A DNA stretch of 64,000 nucleotides from Pseudooceanicola sp. HF7 (GTDB lineage Bacteria; Pseudomonadota; Alphaproteobacteria; Rhodobacterales; Rhodobacteraceae): assembly GCF_011806405.1 (NCBI RefSeq), contig NZ_JAATOW010000019.1:1-64000 (forward strand). The letters are read 5' to 3'. A program made the translations under genes and the position numbers. Positions 33,962 to 41,706 of this stretch are shown in pieces. Every line of letters begins with the position of its first letter. Position 1 is the stretch's first letter. Under the pieces are notes generated by a model that was not told the DNA's origin, ran no database searches, and was given only the letters and a program-made list of their open reading frames with translations.

Positions 33962-35398
33962 TCAGGAACTCAGCCGCATCTCACCGCTGATTTCGGACAG
34001 GTAGCTGGTTCTTGCATGCAGCGCGACCTGGTCCCGCCCGTTGCGCTTGGCGGTGTAAAGCGCGCTATCCGCATCTGTCAGAAGTTCTTCGGCGCTGCGC
34101 TGGCCAAGCTGTCCGATGGTCACCCCGATGGAGACCGTCAGGTTCAGGGGCGGTCGCTGGGTGTCCAGCGGCACGGGTGAGCAGCGCACGATCTCGCAAA
34201 GCTGGCTGGCGATGTAGAGGCTTTCGTTGGGTCCGGTCTCTGGCAGCATGATCAGAAATTCCTCTCCCCCCAGACGCGCCAGAAGATCGCAGGGCCGCAG
34301 GTTGTCACGCAGGACACCGGCCAGGCATTGCAGCGCGGTATCACCGGCCAGGTGGCCGTGGCGGTCATTCACCGCCTTGAAGTGATCGATATCTGCAATG
34401 CAGACGGCGAAAGACCCCGCCGCCTTGCCCGCGTTCGCAGCAAGCTGGTTCAGCCGGGGCAGGGCGAAGCGGCGGTTGTAGAGCCCGGTCAGCGGGTCGA
34501 TCACCGAGGCCCGCAGGCCATCGGCCAGGGCTGAGCGCAGGCAGCGGCGCCGTTCCAGGCGTCTTTGCAGGTTGATCAGTCGCGCATTCAGCTCCTCTGC
34601 GTCCAGACCGTTGGTCATCACCTCGCTGGCACCGATGTCGTACCCTTGGGACACGCAGCGCGGACTGGGATCTTGCGCGATAAGGACAACCTCTGTCTCT
34701 GGCGGATGGCGTTGCGAGCGCAGCTCTGCGATGATCCGGAAGACCCTGCTTTCGTTGCCCGCCTGAAGCCCCATGACCAGCAGCCTTGGGGTGTCATCCT
34801 GCGTGTCGCGAAGCTCTTCCGTGCGCGTGATCTGGTCCAGTGTGACGATATCATGGTGGATGCGGCGGCTTGCTGACATGGCCGTTTTCCACGCTTCGGC
34901 CATGCCCGCATCGGAGGCGACCATGGTCACGGGAATGCGGCCCGTGAAATCCATCGTGGCATCGGAGAAGCCGGGCATCGGTGGCGTGTCCCCGCCATCG
35001 CCGCGCAGCTGCAGGGCCTCTACCATGGCGCGGGCACGCTCATGCGAGCGCAGCCGGGCATGGAACACCTCATCCGGTTCGCTGCGGGGAATTACGTCAT
35101 CCGCTCCTTGGGACAGGAGCTCGGCCCGGTTCGTCTGTGCCCAGGCGGCCGTGACCACGAAAATGATCGTATCGCTGCACCGGGAGTCCTGGCGGATGCG
35201 TTGCAGGAAATCCCTTACCGTCGGGGCGCTCAGCTGGTCGGAAACAAGAATAACGCCCGGTTTCCATTGCTGCATCAAGGCGAAGGCTTCTTCGTCCGAT
35301 CCGGCGATGCGGATGTCATAGAATGCGCCCGAGAGACGCGCGGCCAGAGTGATCCGCCGCGTTACGTCATCGTCAACAATCAGAATTCTTCCTGGCAT
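33962..35398 (-). CDS. PleD-like response regulator, REC-REC-GGDEF diguanylate cyclase
   Basis: A 478-residue cytosolic protein. The N-terminal receiver domain has GRILIVDDD and the phospho-acceptor Asp in VILVSDQLSAP; the usual late Lys region reads IPRSE. A second, degenerate receiver follows. The C-terminal domain carries RLGGEEFLIM, an active GGEEF site, with RPCD five residues earlier as the inhibitory c-di-GMP site. It should make c-di-GMP. The ATG at 35398 (MPGRILIV) has GGGGCGG upstream; the ATG at 35422 lacks one. It is divergent from the DUF3572 gene, a pairing usual in Rhodobacteraceae. Confidence 0.92.
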   Translation of the reverse strand: MPGRILIVDDDVTRRITLAARLSGAFYDIRIAGSDEEAFALMQQWKPGVILVSDQLSAPTVRDFLQRIRQDSRCSDTIIFVVTAAWAQTNRAELLSQGADDVIPRSEPDEVFHARLRSHERARAMVEALQLRGDGGDTPPMPGFSDATMDFTGRIPVTMVASDAGMAEAWKTAMSASRRIHHDIVTLDQITRTEELRDTQDDTPRLLVMGLQAGNESRVFRIIAELRSQRHPPETEVVLIAQDPSPRCVSQGYDIGASEVMTNGLDAEELNARLINLQRRLERRRCLRSALADGLRASVIDPLTGLYNRRFALPRLNQLAANAGKAAGSFAVCIADIDHFKAVNDRHGHLAGDTALQCLAGVLRDNLRPCDLLARLGGEEFLIMLPETGPNESLYIASQLCEIVRCSPVPLDTQRPPLNLTVSIGVTIGQLGQRSAEELLTDADSALYTAKRNGRDQVALHARTSYLSEISGEMRLSS

Positions 35399-35499
35399 GT
35401 CCGCCCCGATCTTTTTGGTCATTGTTGCGGCTTGATTGACCTAGGAATTGGTGAAATTGGTTAAGAATCCATTTCTCTTGGTAAAGGAAACCTTGGCTC

Positions 35500-36255: not shown

Positions 36256-36372
36256 GAGCGTTTTCAGCCTGACGCGCCGTGAAAAGTCAAGCGCCACGCG
36301 CCCTTGAGCGGCGCTTGCGCCAATGATCGAGATGCAGCAGGTTGCAGAAAGGCATGGGCACAGAGGGCAGGC

Positions 36373-37089
36373 ATGGCAATCACGGCGATACTCTTCGACA
36401 AGGACGGCACGCTGTTCGAATTTGGTGCGACATGGAACGCCTGGGCGGCTCAGGTGGTACAGGTGCTTTCGCAGGGGGATGCGACCCTGGCTGGCGCGCT
36501 GGCAGAGGCGATGCGCTTTGATCTGTCGACAGGCAGCTTCCATCCTGACAGCGCGGTGATTGCCGGGACGAACCGCGAGGTCGCAGGCCTGATCCGCAGG
36601 GTTCTGCCCGAAAGCTCCCTGGAAGAGATCGAGGATCTCCTGATCGCCTCTGCGGCCAATACGCTCCTGGTGCCCGCAGCCCCCCTCGAGGCGCTGCTTG
36701 ATGAGTTGGCGGGCGACGGAATCGCGCTTGGCGTGATGACCAATGACAGTGAAGTCAGTGCGCGCGCGCAGCTGAGCACGGCAGGGGTGCTTGACCGCTT
36801 TGCCTTCGTGGCCGGCGCGGACAGTGGTCATGGGGCAAAGCCCGATCCGGCCCCCCTGCGCGCTTTCCTGGAGCATGGTGGCCACCTGGCGGGCGACGCG
36901 GTCATGGTGGGTGACAGTACCCACGACCTGCTGGCAGGTCGCGCGGCCGGCATGCAGACGGTTGCGGTTCTGACGGGGATGGCGGACGCGCATGAGCTGA
37001 CGCCCTATGCCGATGTTGTCCTGCCGCATATTGGCCATCTTCCCGATTGGCTGCGCCAGGACGGGTCGGAGCAGCCCGGACGTAGTTAA
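36373..37089 (+). CDS. HAD-family hydrolase, phosphoglycolate-phosphatase-like
   Basis: A 238-residue hydrolase. Motif I is LFDKDGTLFEF with the nucleophile Asp9 and general acid Asp11, motif II GVMTNDS, motif III Lys in GHGAKPDP, and motif IV VMVGDSTHDLLAG. The helical cap sits between motifs I and II (C1 class), as in phosphoglycolate phosphatases. AGAGGG lies about 5 bases before the ATG at 36373. The physiological substrate is not shown by sequence. Confidence 0.9.
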   Translation: MAITAILFDKDGTLFEFGATWNAWAAQVVQVLSQGDATLAGALAEAMRFDLSTGSFHPDSAVIAGTNREVAGLIRRVLPESSLEEIEDLLIASAANTLLVPAAPLEALLDELAGDGIALGVMTNDSEVSARAQLSTAGVLDRFAFVAGADSGHGAKPDPAPLRAFLEHGGHLAGDAVMVGDSTHDLLAGRAAGMQTVAVLTGMADAHELTPYADVVLPHIGHLPDWLRQDGSEQPGRS

Positions 37090-37558
37090 CAGGATCTTTC
37101 CACATCGCCTGCTGACCTGACGTGCGGCGCGGACAGTGGTGCGGCTTGGCCTTCGCTGAGCGGTCCTAACCCGTTGATGGGCTGAGACCGGCGTTCCGCG
37201 ATGTAACGGGAAAGGCGGTCACGTCTTCGGCATCCAGCAAAAGCAGGCCGGCTATACGATGGCCGTTTACCACCCCTTCCTGTCCGATTGGCGCAGTTAC
37301 GAATTTTGGGAGCAGTCCCGCAGTCTAGGCCGTCGAAAGAGCCCATGCCAAGTAATTGCTGATATTGAAGGACTTCCCGCCGCCGCCAACGCCGGACGCC
37401 GCTCTTTTGGACTTCTTTTTAAGGCGCAAGGAATCGGGCGGCGCCCCCTCGGATTTCCAAGCCCGTCCTCGCAAGGATCGCGTAGGAAGAGCGGCACTTG
37501 TTGAAGTGATGTTAAGCCTCTGAGGCGATGCTGGCCGAAAGTGGCGGGCAATGACGAC
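37090..37558. other. 469-base gap before the H-NOX-like gene
   Basis: No gene is supported. Frames on both strands are Arg/Pro-rich with no family features. There is a locally AT-richer stretch near 37300-37430 and a short GC hairpin near 37437-37450. The length is unusual for this gene-dense window and would suit a small RNA or a long leader, but I recognise no known RNA. Confidence 0.4.
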
Positions 37559-38146
37559 ATGCACGGTTTGATCAACAAATCCATCCAGTCCTTTCTGCGG
37601 GACACCTACGGCGAGGCCGTCTGGAGTGATGTCGTTCTGGCGGCGGATCTGCCGACCAAGGAGTTCGAGGCGATGCTGGCCTATGATGACGAGATCACGG
37701 GCCTGGTTCTGGATGCCGCCGCCGCCCGCCTGAGCCGCCCGCGCGAGGTGCTCCTGGAAGATATCGGGACCTATCTTGTGTCCCACGAGAACAGCCGCGG
37801 CGTCAGGCGATTGCTGCGTTTTGCGGGGGTCTGTTACGAGGATTTCCTGTTTTCGCTGGAAGATCTTCCGGACCGCACCCGGCTGGCCGTCCCGGACCTT
37901 GAACTGCCCGCGCTGGACCTGCGCCAGGAAGAGGCAAGCCGCTTCACGCTGACGACGGGCAATGGCTTGCCCGGAATGGGGCATGTGCTGGTCGGCGTGC
38001 TGCGTGCCATGGCCGATGATTATGGCGCGCTGGTCATGCTGGATCACCTTGGCGAGGGGGGGCAGGGCGAATGCATAGAGATCACGCTGGTGGAACCCCG
38101 CTTTTCCGAGGGCAAACGGTTCGAGCTTGGGGTGCGCACCGGATGA
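37559..38146 (+). CDS. H-NOX-like (heme NO-binding fold) protein lacking heme ligands
   Basis: A 195-residue protein that aligns with H-NOX domains throughout: MHGLINKSIQSFLRDTYG at the start and RRLLRFAGVCYEDFLFSLED in the middle. In H-NOX proteins a His after this block holds the heme iron; here that place is Pro104 (SLEDLPDRT). The YxSxR motif that grips the heme propionates is replaced by Leu131, Thr133 and Asn135. It therefore probably does not bind heme in the usual way. The ATG at 37559 matches the family start; a GTG lies 18 bases upstream. The stop overlaps the next start as ATGA, so it is coupled to the GGDEF partner. Confidence 0.85.
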   Translation: MHGLINKSIQSFLRDTYGEAVWSDVVLAADLPTKEFEAMLAYDDEITGLVLDAAAARLSRPREVLLEDIGTYLVSHENSRGVRRLLRFAGVCYEDFLFSLEDLPDRTRLAVPDLELPALDLRQEEASRFTLTTGNGLPGMGHVLVGVLRAMADDYGALVMLDHLGEGGQGECIEITLVEPRFSEGKRFELGVRTG

Positions 38147-39165
38147 ACGGTGCGCAGGAAAACGTTGCGCTTTCCCCGGTTCGCATGAGCCCGGAAGCGA
38201 TGGATGTGCTCTTCCCGATGCATGTGCGCCTGGATGCCGATGGGCTGATCCGCCGTGTCGGACCGACGATGCAGAAATTGCGGCCTGGCAGGCAGCTTGA
38301 GGGGTTGCGCTTTCTCGACCTGTTCGAGCTGAACCAGCGTCGTTCGATCAGCGCGATGCCGGATCTGCTGGCGCAGGCCGGTCAGAAGCTGCGCCTGCGT
38401 CTGCGCGATGAGCCGCGCACGGCGCTCAAGGCGGTGGTCGTTCCGCTGGAGGATGGCGGTGCCATCGTGAACGCGGCCTTCGGGATCGCCTTCGGAGATG
38501 CCTTGCAGACCTACCCGCTGCACAGCGGGGATTTCGCTCCTACGGATCTGACGATCGAACTGCTTTACCTGGCAGAGGCCAATGCAGCCGTGACCCAGGC
38601 CTATCGCAAACTGGGGCTGCGATTGCAGGGCGCGAAGATGGCGGCAGAGGAACAGGCCTATACAGACACCCTGACCGGACTGAAGAACCGCCGGGCCATG
38701 GATCACGTGTTGGCCCGCCTGATCCGGAGTGGACAGGATTTTGCGCTCAGCCATATGGACCTCGATTTCTTCAAGCAGGTCAATGACACCCATGGCCATG
38801 CCGCCGGGGATGCCGTTCTGCAGCAAGTGGCCAAGGTGCTGGTGGAGGAAACGCGAGAGGCCGATACCGTGGCGCGCGTGGGCGGGGATGAGTTCGTGCT
38901 GATCTTCCCCCGCCTGACACGCCCCGCCCGGATCGAGGAAATCGCCGCCCGCCTGATCGACCGGCTGGAAGAGCCGGTGATGTTCGAGGGGCAGGAGTGC
39001 CGGATCTCCTGCTCTCTCGGTACGACCCTTTCCAGCTACTACGCGGCACCGCAGGCAGAGCAGATGCTGGCGGATGCGGATGCGGCTCTTTATGGGTCAA
39101 AGGAGTCCGGGCGGGCACGGCATTCCTTTTTCGTGCCCCATGCGGAGGGGCTGACCGGACGGTGA
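38143..39165 (+). CDS. Diguanylate cyclase with H-NOX-associated (HNOBA) domain
   Basis: A 340-residue cytosolic protein. Residues about 15-165 resemble the H-NOX-associated PAS-like domain (MDVLFPMHVRLDADGLIRRV and LEGLRFLDLFELNQ). A short coiled segment follows, then a GGDEF domain with DTLTGLKNRRAMD, LDFFKQVNDTHGHAAGD and RVGGDEFVLI. READ five residues before GGDEF is the inhibitory site. It should synthesise c-di-GMP under control of the H-NOX-like protein encoded by the overlapping gene. A similar H-NOX/cyclase pair is known in Dinoroseobacter shibae. Confidence 0.9.
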   Translation: MNGAQENVALSPVRMSPEAMDVLFPMHVRLDADGLIRRVGPTMQKLRPGRQLEGLRFLDLFELNQRRSISAMPDLLAQAGQKLRLRLRDEPRTALKAVVVPLEDGGAIVNAAFGIAFGDALQTYPLHSGDFAPTDLTIELLYLAEANAAVTQAYRKLGLRLQGAKMAAEEQAYTDTLTGLKNRRAMDHVLARLIRSGQDFALSHMDLDFFKQVNDTHGHAAGDAVLQQVAKVLVEETREADTVARVGGDEFVLIFPRLTRPARIEEIAARLIDRLEEPVMFEGQECRISCSLGTTLSSYYAAPQAEQMLADADAALYGSKESGRARHSFFVPHAEGLTGR

Positions 39166-39172
39166 CCTGCCC

Positions 39173-39280
39173 TTAGTAGGGCAGGGCCAGTTTTATGACG
39201 AGGGCCAGAACCCCCACGGCCAAGACACCCGCCAGCCAAAGGCCGGCGAACCACATGAGCCGTTTGGGTGATTGCCGCAT
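39173..39280 (-). CDS. DUF2474 small cytochrome bd subunit (CydX-like)
   Basis: A 35-residue protein, MRQSPKRLMWFAGLWLAGVL at the start and LALVIKLALPY at the end, with one membrane helix. Its ATG shares the last base of the cydB stop (TGATG), so it is translated with cydB. DUF2474 proteins accompany CIO-type bd oxidases and by analogy with CydX probably stabilise the complex. It is too short for most gene finders. Confidence 0.8.
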   Translation of the reverse strand: MRQSPKRLMWFAGLWLAGVLAVGVLALVIKLALPY

Positions 39281-40284
39281 CAGTGGTAGCCTTCTTCCGG
39301 ATCGATCTTACCGCGGAAGACCCAATAGGCATAGGCGGTATAGGCAAGGATGATCGGCACCAGCACGACCGCTCCGACCAGGATGAAGCGCAGGCTCTCA
39401 TCCGGTGCGGCCGCCTCTGCGATCGTCAGGTTCGGCGGCACCATGTAGGGATAGAAGCTGATCCCGATGCCGATGAAGCTGAGCACGAAAAGGCTTTGCG
39501 CGGCCAGGAAGGGCTGAACGTCCTTGCCCTTGCGCAGCCCGTCGAACAGCAGCGCGGCCGCGACCAGCAGCAGCAACGGAACCGCGGCGCTATACCAGGC
39601 GGCTGGGAAGGTGAACCAGCGGCCAAGGTACTGCGGGTGCAGGAAGGGCGTGACCAGGCTGACGGCGCCAATCGCAATCAGGGTGCCCGCCCCAAGCTTG
39701 ATCGCCAGGCGGCGCATCTGGTCCCGCAACGGGCCTTCAGTCTTCATGACAAGCCAGGTCGCGCCCAGCAATCCGTAGCCGAGCACCAGGGCGACGCCGG
39801 TCCCGATCGAAAAGGCGGAAAGCCAGTCCCACCAGCCGCCGGCATAGGCGCGGCCCTCGACCTCGATCCCCTGCACCAGCGCGCCAAGCGCCACGCCCTG
39901 CATGAAGGTCGCCACGAGCGAGCCACCGAAGAAGGCCGTGTCCCAGAGGGGCTGCCAGCGCTCCGATCGCCAGCGGTATTCAAAGCCAACGCCGCGAAAG
40001 ACCAGGGCCAACAACATCAAGATGATCGGGATGTAGAGCGCCGGCATGACCACCGCATAGGCCAGGGGGAAGACGGCAAACAGGCCGCCACCCCCAAGCA
40101 CCAGCCAGGTTTCGTTCCCGTCCCAGACCGGCGCGACGGTGTTCATCATCAGGCCGCGCTCTTTGTGATCCGTGGCCAGAGGGAAAAGGATGCCAATCCC
40201 CAGGTCAAAGCCGTCGAGCACGACATAGGTCAGGACCGCGAAAGCGATGATCCCGGCGAAGATGAAAGATAGATCGAAGATCAT
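39280..40284 (-). CDS. cydB: Cytochrome bd (CIO-type) ubiquinol oxidase subunit II
   Basis: A 334-residue inner-membrane protein with about eight helices. The start MIFDLSFIFAGIIAFAVLTY and LDGFDLGIGILFP, then VWDGNETWLVLGGGGLF, are the CydB/CioB signatures. It partners subunit I in a heme oxidase that takes electrons from ubiquinol to oxygen without pumping protons. It lies 12 bases after cydA and its stop overlaps the DUF2474 gene. Confidence 0.95.
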   Translation of the reverse strand: MIFDLSFIFAGIIAFAVLTYVVLDGFDLGIGILFPLATDHKERGLMMNTVAPVWDGNETWLVLGGGGLFAVFPLAYAVVMPALYIPIILMLLALVFRGVGFEYRWRSERWQPLWDTAFFGGSLVATFMQGVALGALVQGIEVEGRAYAGGWWDWLSAFSIGTGVALVLGYGLLGATWLVMKTEGPLRDQMRRLAIKLGAGTLIAIGAVSLVTPFLHPQYLGRWFTFPAAWYSAAVPLLLLVAAALLFDGLRKGKDVQPFLAAQSLFVLSFIGIGISFYPYMVPPNLTIAEAAAPDESLRFILVGAVVLVPIILAYTAYAYWVFRGKIDPEEGYH

Positions 40285-40296
40285 TTTTGGCGCTCC

Positions 40297-41706
40297 TCAG
40301 TCATCATGACGGGCATCGGGGTCGGATTGTTGAACGGGGGTAATCCCCGCCGTGCGGATGGGACCATCGCGCAGGCCCAGTTTCGGCGTTGCTGCCGGTT
40401 TGGCCATCATCAGCAGGATGTAAAGCGTGCCGGCCCCGAAGACGAAGAAGTAGACAGCCACGAAGCCCGCGAGAGAGGTCGCGACCGCCGGCAATTGGAT
40501 GGGTGACAGGCTGTCAGAGGTGCGCAGCAGGCCGTAGACCGTCCAGGGTTGGCGGCCGACCTCTGTCGTGATCCAGCCGGCCAGAACGGCGACGAACCCC
40601 ATCGGCCCCATGCAGAGGGCAAAGCGGTGCAGCCAGGGGCTTTCGTAAAGGCGTCCCATGGCCCGTTTCGTCACGGACCAGAGCCCCAGGGCCAACATGC
40701 AGAACCCCAGCCCGACCATCACGCGGAAGGCGTAGAAGACGATGGCCACGGGCGGCTGGTCTTCCCTTGCGACGGTATCCAGACCGTTCAGCGGTGCATC
40801 CCATTGGTGTTTCAGGATCAGGCTGGACAGTTTCGGGATCTCGACCGCGAATTCCATCTTCTGGTCCTCCTGATTGGGCCAGCCGAAAAGGACAAGCGGT
40901 GCGCCGTCGGGGTGGCTTTCGAAGTGACCTTCCATTGCCATGACCTTGACGGGCTGATGCTCCAGCGTGTTGAGGCCGTGCTGATCGCCCGCGAAGATCT
41001 GGATGGGCGCCACGATGACGATCATCCACATCGCCATGGAGAACATTCGGCGCGCCGAGGGATCAAGACGGTCGCGCAGCAGGTGCCAGGCGCCGACGCC
41101 GCCAACGACAAGCGCCGTGGTCAGGTAAGCGGCAAGAACCATGTGGACCAGGCGGTAGGGGAAGGACGGAGAGAAGATGATCGCCCACCAGTCCGCTGGC
41201 ACGAACTGGCCCACGTCATTCATCGCGTGGCCCGTCGGCGTCTGCATCCAGGAGTTCACGGCCAGGATCCATGTCGCGGAGAAGAGCGTGCCAACCGCCA
41301 CCATCAGCGTGGCGAACATGTGCAGCCCATCGCCCACCCGGTTGCGTCCGAACAGCATGATCCCCAGGAAACCGGCCTCAAGGAAGAAGGCCGAGAGCAC
41401 CTCGTACCCCATGAGCGGGCCGATGATGGGCCCGGCCTTGTCCGAAAAGACCGCCCAGTTGGTGCCGAACTGGTAGGACATCACGATCCCGGAAACGACG
41501 CCCATCCCGAAGGCAACCGCGAATATCTTCTTCCAGTACGTGAAGAGGGTAAGATAGGTGTCGTCCCGCGTTCGCAGCCACATCGCGTTGAGCACGGCAA
41601 GGTAGCTGGCCAGGCCGATTGAAAAGGCGGGGAAGATAATGTGGAAAGAGACCGTGAACGCGAACTGGATACGTGCCAGGGTCTCTGCTGTGACGCTTTC
41701 GAGCAT
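40297..41706 (-). CDS. cydA: Cytochrome bd (CIO-type) ubiquinol oxidase subunit I
   Basis: A 469-residue inner-membrane protein that carries the hemes. His in FAFTVSFHIIFPAFSIG near the N-terminus and GRQPW (in TEVGRQPWTVYGLL) are conserved heme/quinol-site features. The short length and short Q-loop put it in the cyanide-insensitive (CioA) branch and not the 520-residue E. coli CydA branch. It gives respiration that is insensitive to NO and cyanide. AAGG lies about 9 bases before the ATG. No FNR-type site is seen upstream. Confidence 0.95.
   Translation of the reverse strand: MLESVTAETLARIQFAFTVSFHIIFPAFSIGLASYLAVLNAMWLRTRDDTYLTLFTYWKKIFAVAFGMGVVSGIVMSYQFGTNWAVFSDKAGPIIGPLMGYEVLSAFFLEAGFLGIMLFGRNRVGDGLHMFATLMVAVGTLFSATWILAVNSWMQTPTGHAMNDVGQFVPADWWAIIFSPSFPYRLVHMVLAAYLTTALVVGGVGAWHLLRDRLDPSARRMFSMAMWMIVIVAPIQIFAGDQHGLNTLEHQPVKVMAMEGHFESHPDGAPLVLFGWPNQEDQKMEFAVEIPKLSSLILKHQWDAPLNGLDTVAREDQPPVAIVFYAFRVMVGLGFCMLALGLWSVTKRAMGRLYESPWLHRFALCMGPMGFVAVLAGWITTEVGRQPWTVYGLLRTSDSLSPIQLPAVATSLAGFVAVYFFVFGAGTLYILLMMAKPAATPKLGLRDGPIRTAGITPVQQSDPDARHDD

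Follow-up and report, generated by a model that had tools for sequence, protein, structure and literature searches.

We analysed a 64,000-nucleotide stretch of DNA from Pseudooceanicola sp. HF7 (hereafter the window; contig NZ_JAATOW010000019.1, positions 1 to 64,000 of the forward strand), which comes from a genome of 4.27 Mb that is 97% complete, and found in it a Rhodobacteraceae hnoX-dgc operon with an H-NOX protein of group 5, a new member of a described class. The hnoX-like gene (37559..38146, + strand, ATG at 37559, TGA at 38146) codes for a 195-residue H-NOX/HNOB protein without the proximal His, and it shares four bases (ATGA, 38143..38146, + strand) with the start of the diguanylate cyclase gene dgc (38143..39165, + strand, ATG at 38143, TGA at 39165). 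A first-pass annotation, made by a model from the letters alone, had reported both the gene pair and the stop/start overlap, and the sequence bears it out on each. The H-NOX identity of the hnoX product is far above chance: its Pfam HNOB (PF07700) match reaches 78.2 bits (E 8.5e-22; the curated cut-off is 25.5) and spans positions 1-157 of the 163 in the profile, and by phmmer the closest sequence with a solved structure is that of Nostoc Alr2278 (E 1.2e-16). In its AlphaFold model the mean predicted local distance difference test (pLDDT) is 87.6 and the predicted template-modelling score (pTM) 0.84, with residues 182-195 below 50, and the model matches the Nostoc H-NOX structure 2o09 at a TM-score (TMq) of 0.81, so that the predicted structure fits a solved H-NOX. 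The H-NOX chain is thus retained, as had been claimed.

What the protein lacks are the two features by which heme-based nitric oxide (NO) sensors of this family are recognized. The proximal His105 of Alr2278 aligns to Pro104 of the window protein (codon CCG, 37868..37870, + strand), in agreement with the earlier reading, and Tyr134, Ser136 and Arg138 of the Alr2278 YxSxR motif align to Thr133, Asn135 and Leu137, with phmmer and MAFFT in accord. The YxSxR motif is therefore absent, as stated before, but the residues given for it then (Leu131/Thr133/Asn135) were two positions off. The accompanying statement that every usual heme-contact residue had been lost went too far: Pro117, which corresponds to the heme-bending Pro118 of Alr2278, is retained along with the Gly hinges G70 and G146, and none of the three varies among the 173 group-5 proteins described below. 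The roles of the heme-bending Pro and the Gly hinge in H-NOX proteins are set out in PMC7108781. It follows from the loss of the proximal His and of the propionate-binding YxSxR that the window protein has no normal His-ligated heme, and to judge from its sequence it is most likely heme-free in the cell. The earlier impression that heme binding looks lost is thus well supported as far as a His-ligated heme is concerned; the missing YxSxR by itself is weak evidence of heme loss, because the H-NOX of Dinoroseobacter shibae lacks the Tyr and Ser and is yet reported to respond to NO.

The partner is a 340-residue protein composed of an N-terminal PAS/HNOBA-like domain, a long helix (residues 136-196) and a GGDEF domain that scores 137.1 bits against its profile. 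Both the GGDEF active-site motif (38881..38895, + strand) and the RxxD inhibitory site, READ (38854..38865, + strand), can be read in the sequence, as was noted before, and with GG[DE]EF and RxxD both present the protein is predicted to be an active diguanylate cyclase. Its model (pLDDT 90.9, pTM 0.60) shows an N-terminal mixed domain, the helix and the GGDEF domain. Foldseek placed a PAS-GGDEF-EAL protein first and soluble guanylate cyclase (sGC) beta next, over 313-360 columns with a large overall root-mean-square deviation, so the likeness holds domain by domain; a re-check with VIA-align mainly probes the GGDEF part. The label HNOBA-GGDEF given to this cyclase is secure in its second half only, since its HNOBA (PF07701) match (14.6 bits) stays under the cut-off of 23.4, whereas that of the D. 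shibae ortholog (31.5 bits) passes it. The overall layout, H-NOX followed by PAS, coiled coil and cyclase, is like that of the beta and alpha subunits of sGC, except that the window system consists of two proteins and ends in a diguanylate rather than a guanylate cyclase. The sGC alpha subunit also contains a heme-free H-NOX domain.

Proteins of this kind have been described before. Kumar and Spiro reported in 2017 that the Paracoccus denitrificans H-NOX lacks the axial His, as in R. sphaeroides, and that its hnoX gene overlaps a GGDEF gene (the Pden_3719/3720 pair, hnoX-dgcA; PMC5588039). Compared by description, that pair resembles the one in the window both in the missing His and in the overlap with the GGDEF gene; it comes from another genus and has been studied through mutants. 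Lee-Lopez and Yukl in 2022 described a "very large" group 5 in which fewer than 10% of the members have the His and most have Pro, with no conserved Cys and with the Gly hinges kept, and they posed the question of how group 5 senses NO or anything at all (PMC8738867). The window protein fits this group by its Pro at the proximal site, its Gly hinges, its GGDEF neighbour and the absence of a conserved Cys. All the traits listed for the group are seen in it, and nothing was found to set it apart in a comparison of which the similarity network formed no part. The residue loss seen by the first-pass annotation is therefore real, but the find is not novel, the class having been in print since 2017-2022.

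Our working limit for group 5 was an identity of at least 30% with the window protein (the next protein down has 25%), and we sampled a draw of 149 Rhodobacteraceae genera, a draw from the class, and the best 80 of 541 relatives. Since it includes these best 80, the resulting set of 173 distinct full-length proteins leans toward window-like proteins, and the genus draw is the less biased sample. Left out were one protein missed by the profile (L123), a D. shibae plasmid (L126), 15 duplicates and two fragments shorter than 150 residues, namely L213 and a piece of L215. An HNOB match was present in 108 of the 149 genera of the family draw, and reading the genes in all 108 gave group 5 in 104, canonical H-NOX in 17 and both in 13. 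The proximal His was found in 7 of the 104 group-5 genera (another of the 104, G061, has a fragment that is unreadable at this site) and in 11 of the 173 proteins, shares that agree with the published figure of less than 10%. The other proteins have Pro (130), Ser (9), Ala (7), Asn (4), Gln (3), Thr, Arg and Gly (2 each), and Asp, Lys and Glu (1 each). Most members of this orthologous pair, which occurs across the family, thus lack the His, and the loss is not peculiar to the window genome. All 173 have a GGDEF gene directly after their own on the same strand, from -150 to +400 bases of the hnoX stop, with an ATGA overlap in 105 of them, the window pair included, and the partners carry GG[DE]EF in 173 and RxxD in 171 cases. 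Outside Rhodobacteraceae, H-NOX is rare: 14 of 289 class-draw genomes had a match, 10 of these outside the family. Two further observations arose from this survey. Genome G086 encodes a canonical-type H-NOX (L017/L220) that has Gln at the proximal site but keeps Tyr and Ser of YxSxR; the His seems to have been lost independently here, outside group 5. A record titled as an Exiguobacterium profundum metagenome-assembled genome (L096, CP059262.1) has the Rhodobacteraceae pair and groups with Rhodobacteraceae sequences, and is probably mislabelled.

The D. shibae system had been offered by the first-pass annotation as an example of a known NO sensor. That description matches the reports: D. shibae has one H-NOX gene, beside dgc1 (PMC6473078), and its NO-bound H-NOX is reported to inhibit Dgc1 (PMC7232146, PMC8846402). 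As a contrast to the window pair the example fails, being a His-keeping member of the same orthologous group. The only HNOB gene of D. shibae DFL 12 belongs to group 5, and its product is 44% identical to the window protein and is one of the 11 that keep the His (LDDLHDRARL); at YxSxR, Cys and Trp replace the Tyr and Ser, and the Arg is aligned. Like the window pair, it has an HNOBA-GGDEF partner directly downstream; unlike the window protein, it keeps the His and is a reported NO sensor. We did not find it stated in the literature searched, which covered few subscription papers, that this NO sensor is a group-5 ortholog.

The state of the proximal site has changed repeatedly. A quick H-NOX tree requires at least 8 changes between His and non-His among its group-5 rows, of which its starred (supported) branches force only 1; a tree of H-NOX and cyclase joined (168 rows) gives 7 changes, 5 of them forced by starred branches, and the 98-row tree of the genus draw gives 5. 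These trees were built quickly, many of their forks are weak, and the change counts are blind to loss versus regain; the joined tree was built without a mixture model and after dropping five long-branch rows, none with His (L216, L214, L208, L020 and L138). The His codons CAC and CAT are one base from the Pro codons CCC and CCT. The window protein lies in a starred clade of 12 rows, mostly Pseudooceanicola, all of which have Pro. His-less genes are under purifying selection, with a median ratio of nonsynonymous to synonymous substitution (dN/dS) of 0.096 (NG86) over 27 pairs that are 75-97% identical; several of the synonymous distances exceed 1, which makes them uncertain.

Production of NO does not explain this distribution in any simple manner. 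Genes for nirS or nirK occur in 43 of the 104 group-5 genera, namely in 6 of the 7 with His and 37 of the 97 others (Fisher p 0.019), but phylogenetically independent pairs on the 98-row tree, 3 of them on starred branches, give a median p of 0.5 and are too few to reach 0.05. A link of His retention to denitrification is thus not established. We took as nirS the PF02239 matches above about 310 bits (33 of 62 genomes with any match) and as nirK the TIGR02376 matches over cut-off; the counts include a gene split over contig ends (G069), a best match of 360 bits that may be NirN (G114) and, among the 97, the fragment of G061. Lack of NO production can be rejected as the whole reason for loss of the His, given the 37 of 97 non-His genera with nirS or nirK, and, with nirK present in the window genome too, NO production does not preserve the His. 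Likewise rejected for this cell is the idea that NO is handled by another H-NOX, one that does bind heme: the window genome, 97% complete, has one HNOB gene only.

Upstream of the pair, a CtrA-like site of the form TTGA-N7-TTAA (TTGAAGTGATGTTAA, 37501-37515, + strand) lies 58 bp before the hnoX start. Among the 171 group-5 loci with 200 bp of upstream sequence, the best TTNN-N7-TTAA-like site lies 45-70 bp ahead of the start in 155, and its score is above the 95% point of shuffled sequence in 157. As 36 of these sequences had served to train the site matrix, the case for the site rests more on its common position than on its score. The label CtrA derives from TTAA-N7-TTAA, which we take to be the CtrA consensus; used untrained and with at most one mismatch, it occurs in 36 of the 171 loci versus 3.5 in shuffles. 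CtrA is reported to control rcc02629 in R. capsulatus (PMC9143464) as well as H-NOX and c-di-GMP (cyclic diguanylate) genes in D. shibae (PMC7232146), and by analogy we infer that the window copy is also under CtrA control.

Our preferred interpretation, to which we assign a probability of roughly 0.6, is that the window protein is a heme-free H-NOX which controls its cyclase through direct contact, probably as an inhibitor. It retains the H-NOX fold, both Gly hinges, the heme-bending Pro and a set of conserved residues specific to the group. Its contact would be with a cyclase in which the PAS/HNOBA-like domain is comparable to the PAS of sGC and the long helix to its coiled coil. The pair thus has the layout of a split sGC, in the order H-NOX, PAS/HNOBA, coiled coil and cyclase, and the contact would probably hold the cyclase down. 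The H-NOX could be locked in a signalling state, as when the Fe-His bond is broken, or a different ligand could gate it, and the data favour neither. The H103G variant of a Shewanella H-NOX reportedly traps the kinase-inhibiting form. This protein (title of PDB entry 2kil) is a precedent for a fixed state. The absence of heme in vivo, the contact with the partner and inhibition as its direction are all parts that we infer. The literature on relatives may bear on this by analogy, in that the P. denitrificans hnoX mutant is partly biofilm-deficient and the dgcAB mutant overproduces biofilm (PMC5588039), opposite phenotypes. The earlier suggestion of a heme-free switch with another, still hypothetical ligand or a pure protein-protein regulator remains the best reading.

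Several points weigh against a heme-free inhibitor. With no input to modulate it, a permanently active inhibitor expressed together with its target would be of little regulatory use. The window genome carries nirK (526.8 bits), so the cell probably produces NO. The P. denitrificans authors themselves propose NO sensing (PMC5588039), and since c-di-GMP was under detection in that organism, inhibition by H-NOX was not directly shown there. The conserved residues are common to His and non-His members and so fit either mode. Finally, His2 (codon 37562-37564), a signature of the group, is present in 92% of group 5, where 80% of 28 canonical H-NOX proteins have Lys, and heme ligation from elsewhere is possible.

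Among the other explanations, the one that survives best is a sub-case of heme-free regulation, in which the aliphatic pocket would bind another, probably neutral hydrophobic molecule that sets the hinge; we regard it as possible but tentative. More doubtful is a one-codon evolutionary switch (CAC/CAT versus CCN) between NO-sensing and NO-blind forms within one operon, with five or more losses or regains of the His; on this view the form without His would naturally imitate the conformation that NO induces, in which the Fe-His bond is broken, and would be a standing brake on the cyclase, its strength set by CtrA-timed expression. It is unlikely, in our estimate, that heme is still bound and NO sensed, either through another ligand such as His2 or His76 or with no protein ligand. 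The frequency of His2 and of His76 (74% of group 5), as well as the invariance of Pro117, would accord with such a protein, and the P. denitrificans authors model NO as acting on its NO-stimulated biofilm via the His-less H-NOX (PMC5588039). But the propionate-binding YxSxR is lost in the window protein, and P. denitrificans mutants in hnoX and dgc also formed more biofilm with NO (PMC5588039). A Cys-zinc redox sensor, as in the Vibrio cholerae H-NOX, is very improbable. That protein does signal without heme (PMC7108781), and the YxSxR Tyr position is the commonest Cys column of group 5 (Cys in 63%). The V. cholerae protein, however, retains the proximal His and works through a Cys3-zinc site, whereas the window protein lacks such a site and has Thr at the 63% column and only 2 Cys where three and a His or Gln are needed; further, the Cys count over the 173 proteins runs from 0 to 7, with none in 8, and there is no invariant Cys, so that the sequences disfavour this mechanism. 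That the gene is a decaying remnant of a former NO sensor, as the lost heme motif and the drift of the proximal site might suggest, is hardly credible and is refuted at group level by the low dN/dS, by 33 invariant columns in 62 aligned sequences and by a cyclase partner in every member.

The operon thus runs through the family, and group 5 is its prevailing state (104 of 149 genera), the reported NO sensor of D. shibae being a member that retains the His. Because that sensor lies inside the group, the question of what group 5 senses can be tested on orthologs with different residues at the proximal site. A further consequence is that "NO sensor" labels transferred by homology in Rhodobacteraceae (e.g., R. 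capsulatus) need a check of the proximal residue.

The genes around the pair were compared over the 142 group-5 loci having at least 2.4 kb on each side. A HAD-family hydrolase gene (36304-37089, + strand) lies 5' of hnoX on the same strand, and a homolog is likewise placed in 92 of these loci. The cytochrome bd oxidase genes cydB and cydA (39280-41706, - strand) are convergent with the cyclase gene; a CydB match near hnoX was found in none of the 142 loci. About 2 kb from hnoX is a second diguanylate cyclase gene, PleD-like and with a receiver domain (33962-35422, - strand), and in at least 39 of the 142 loci, whose flanks are short, a PleD-like gene is present besides the partner, D. shibae included.
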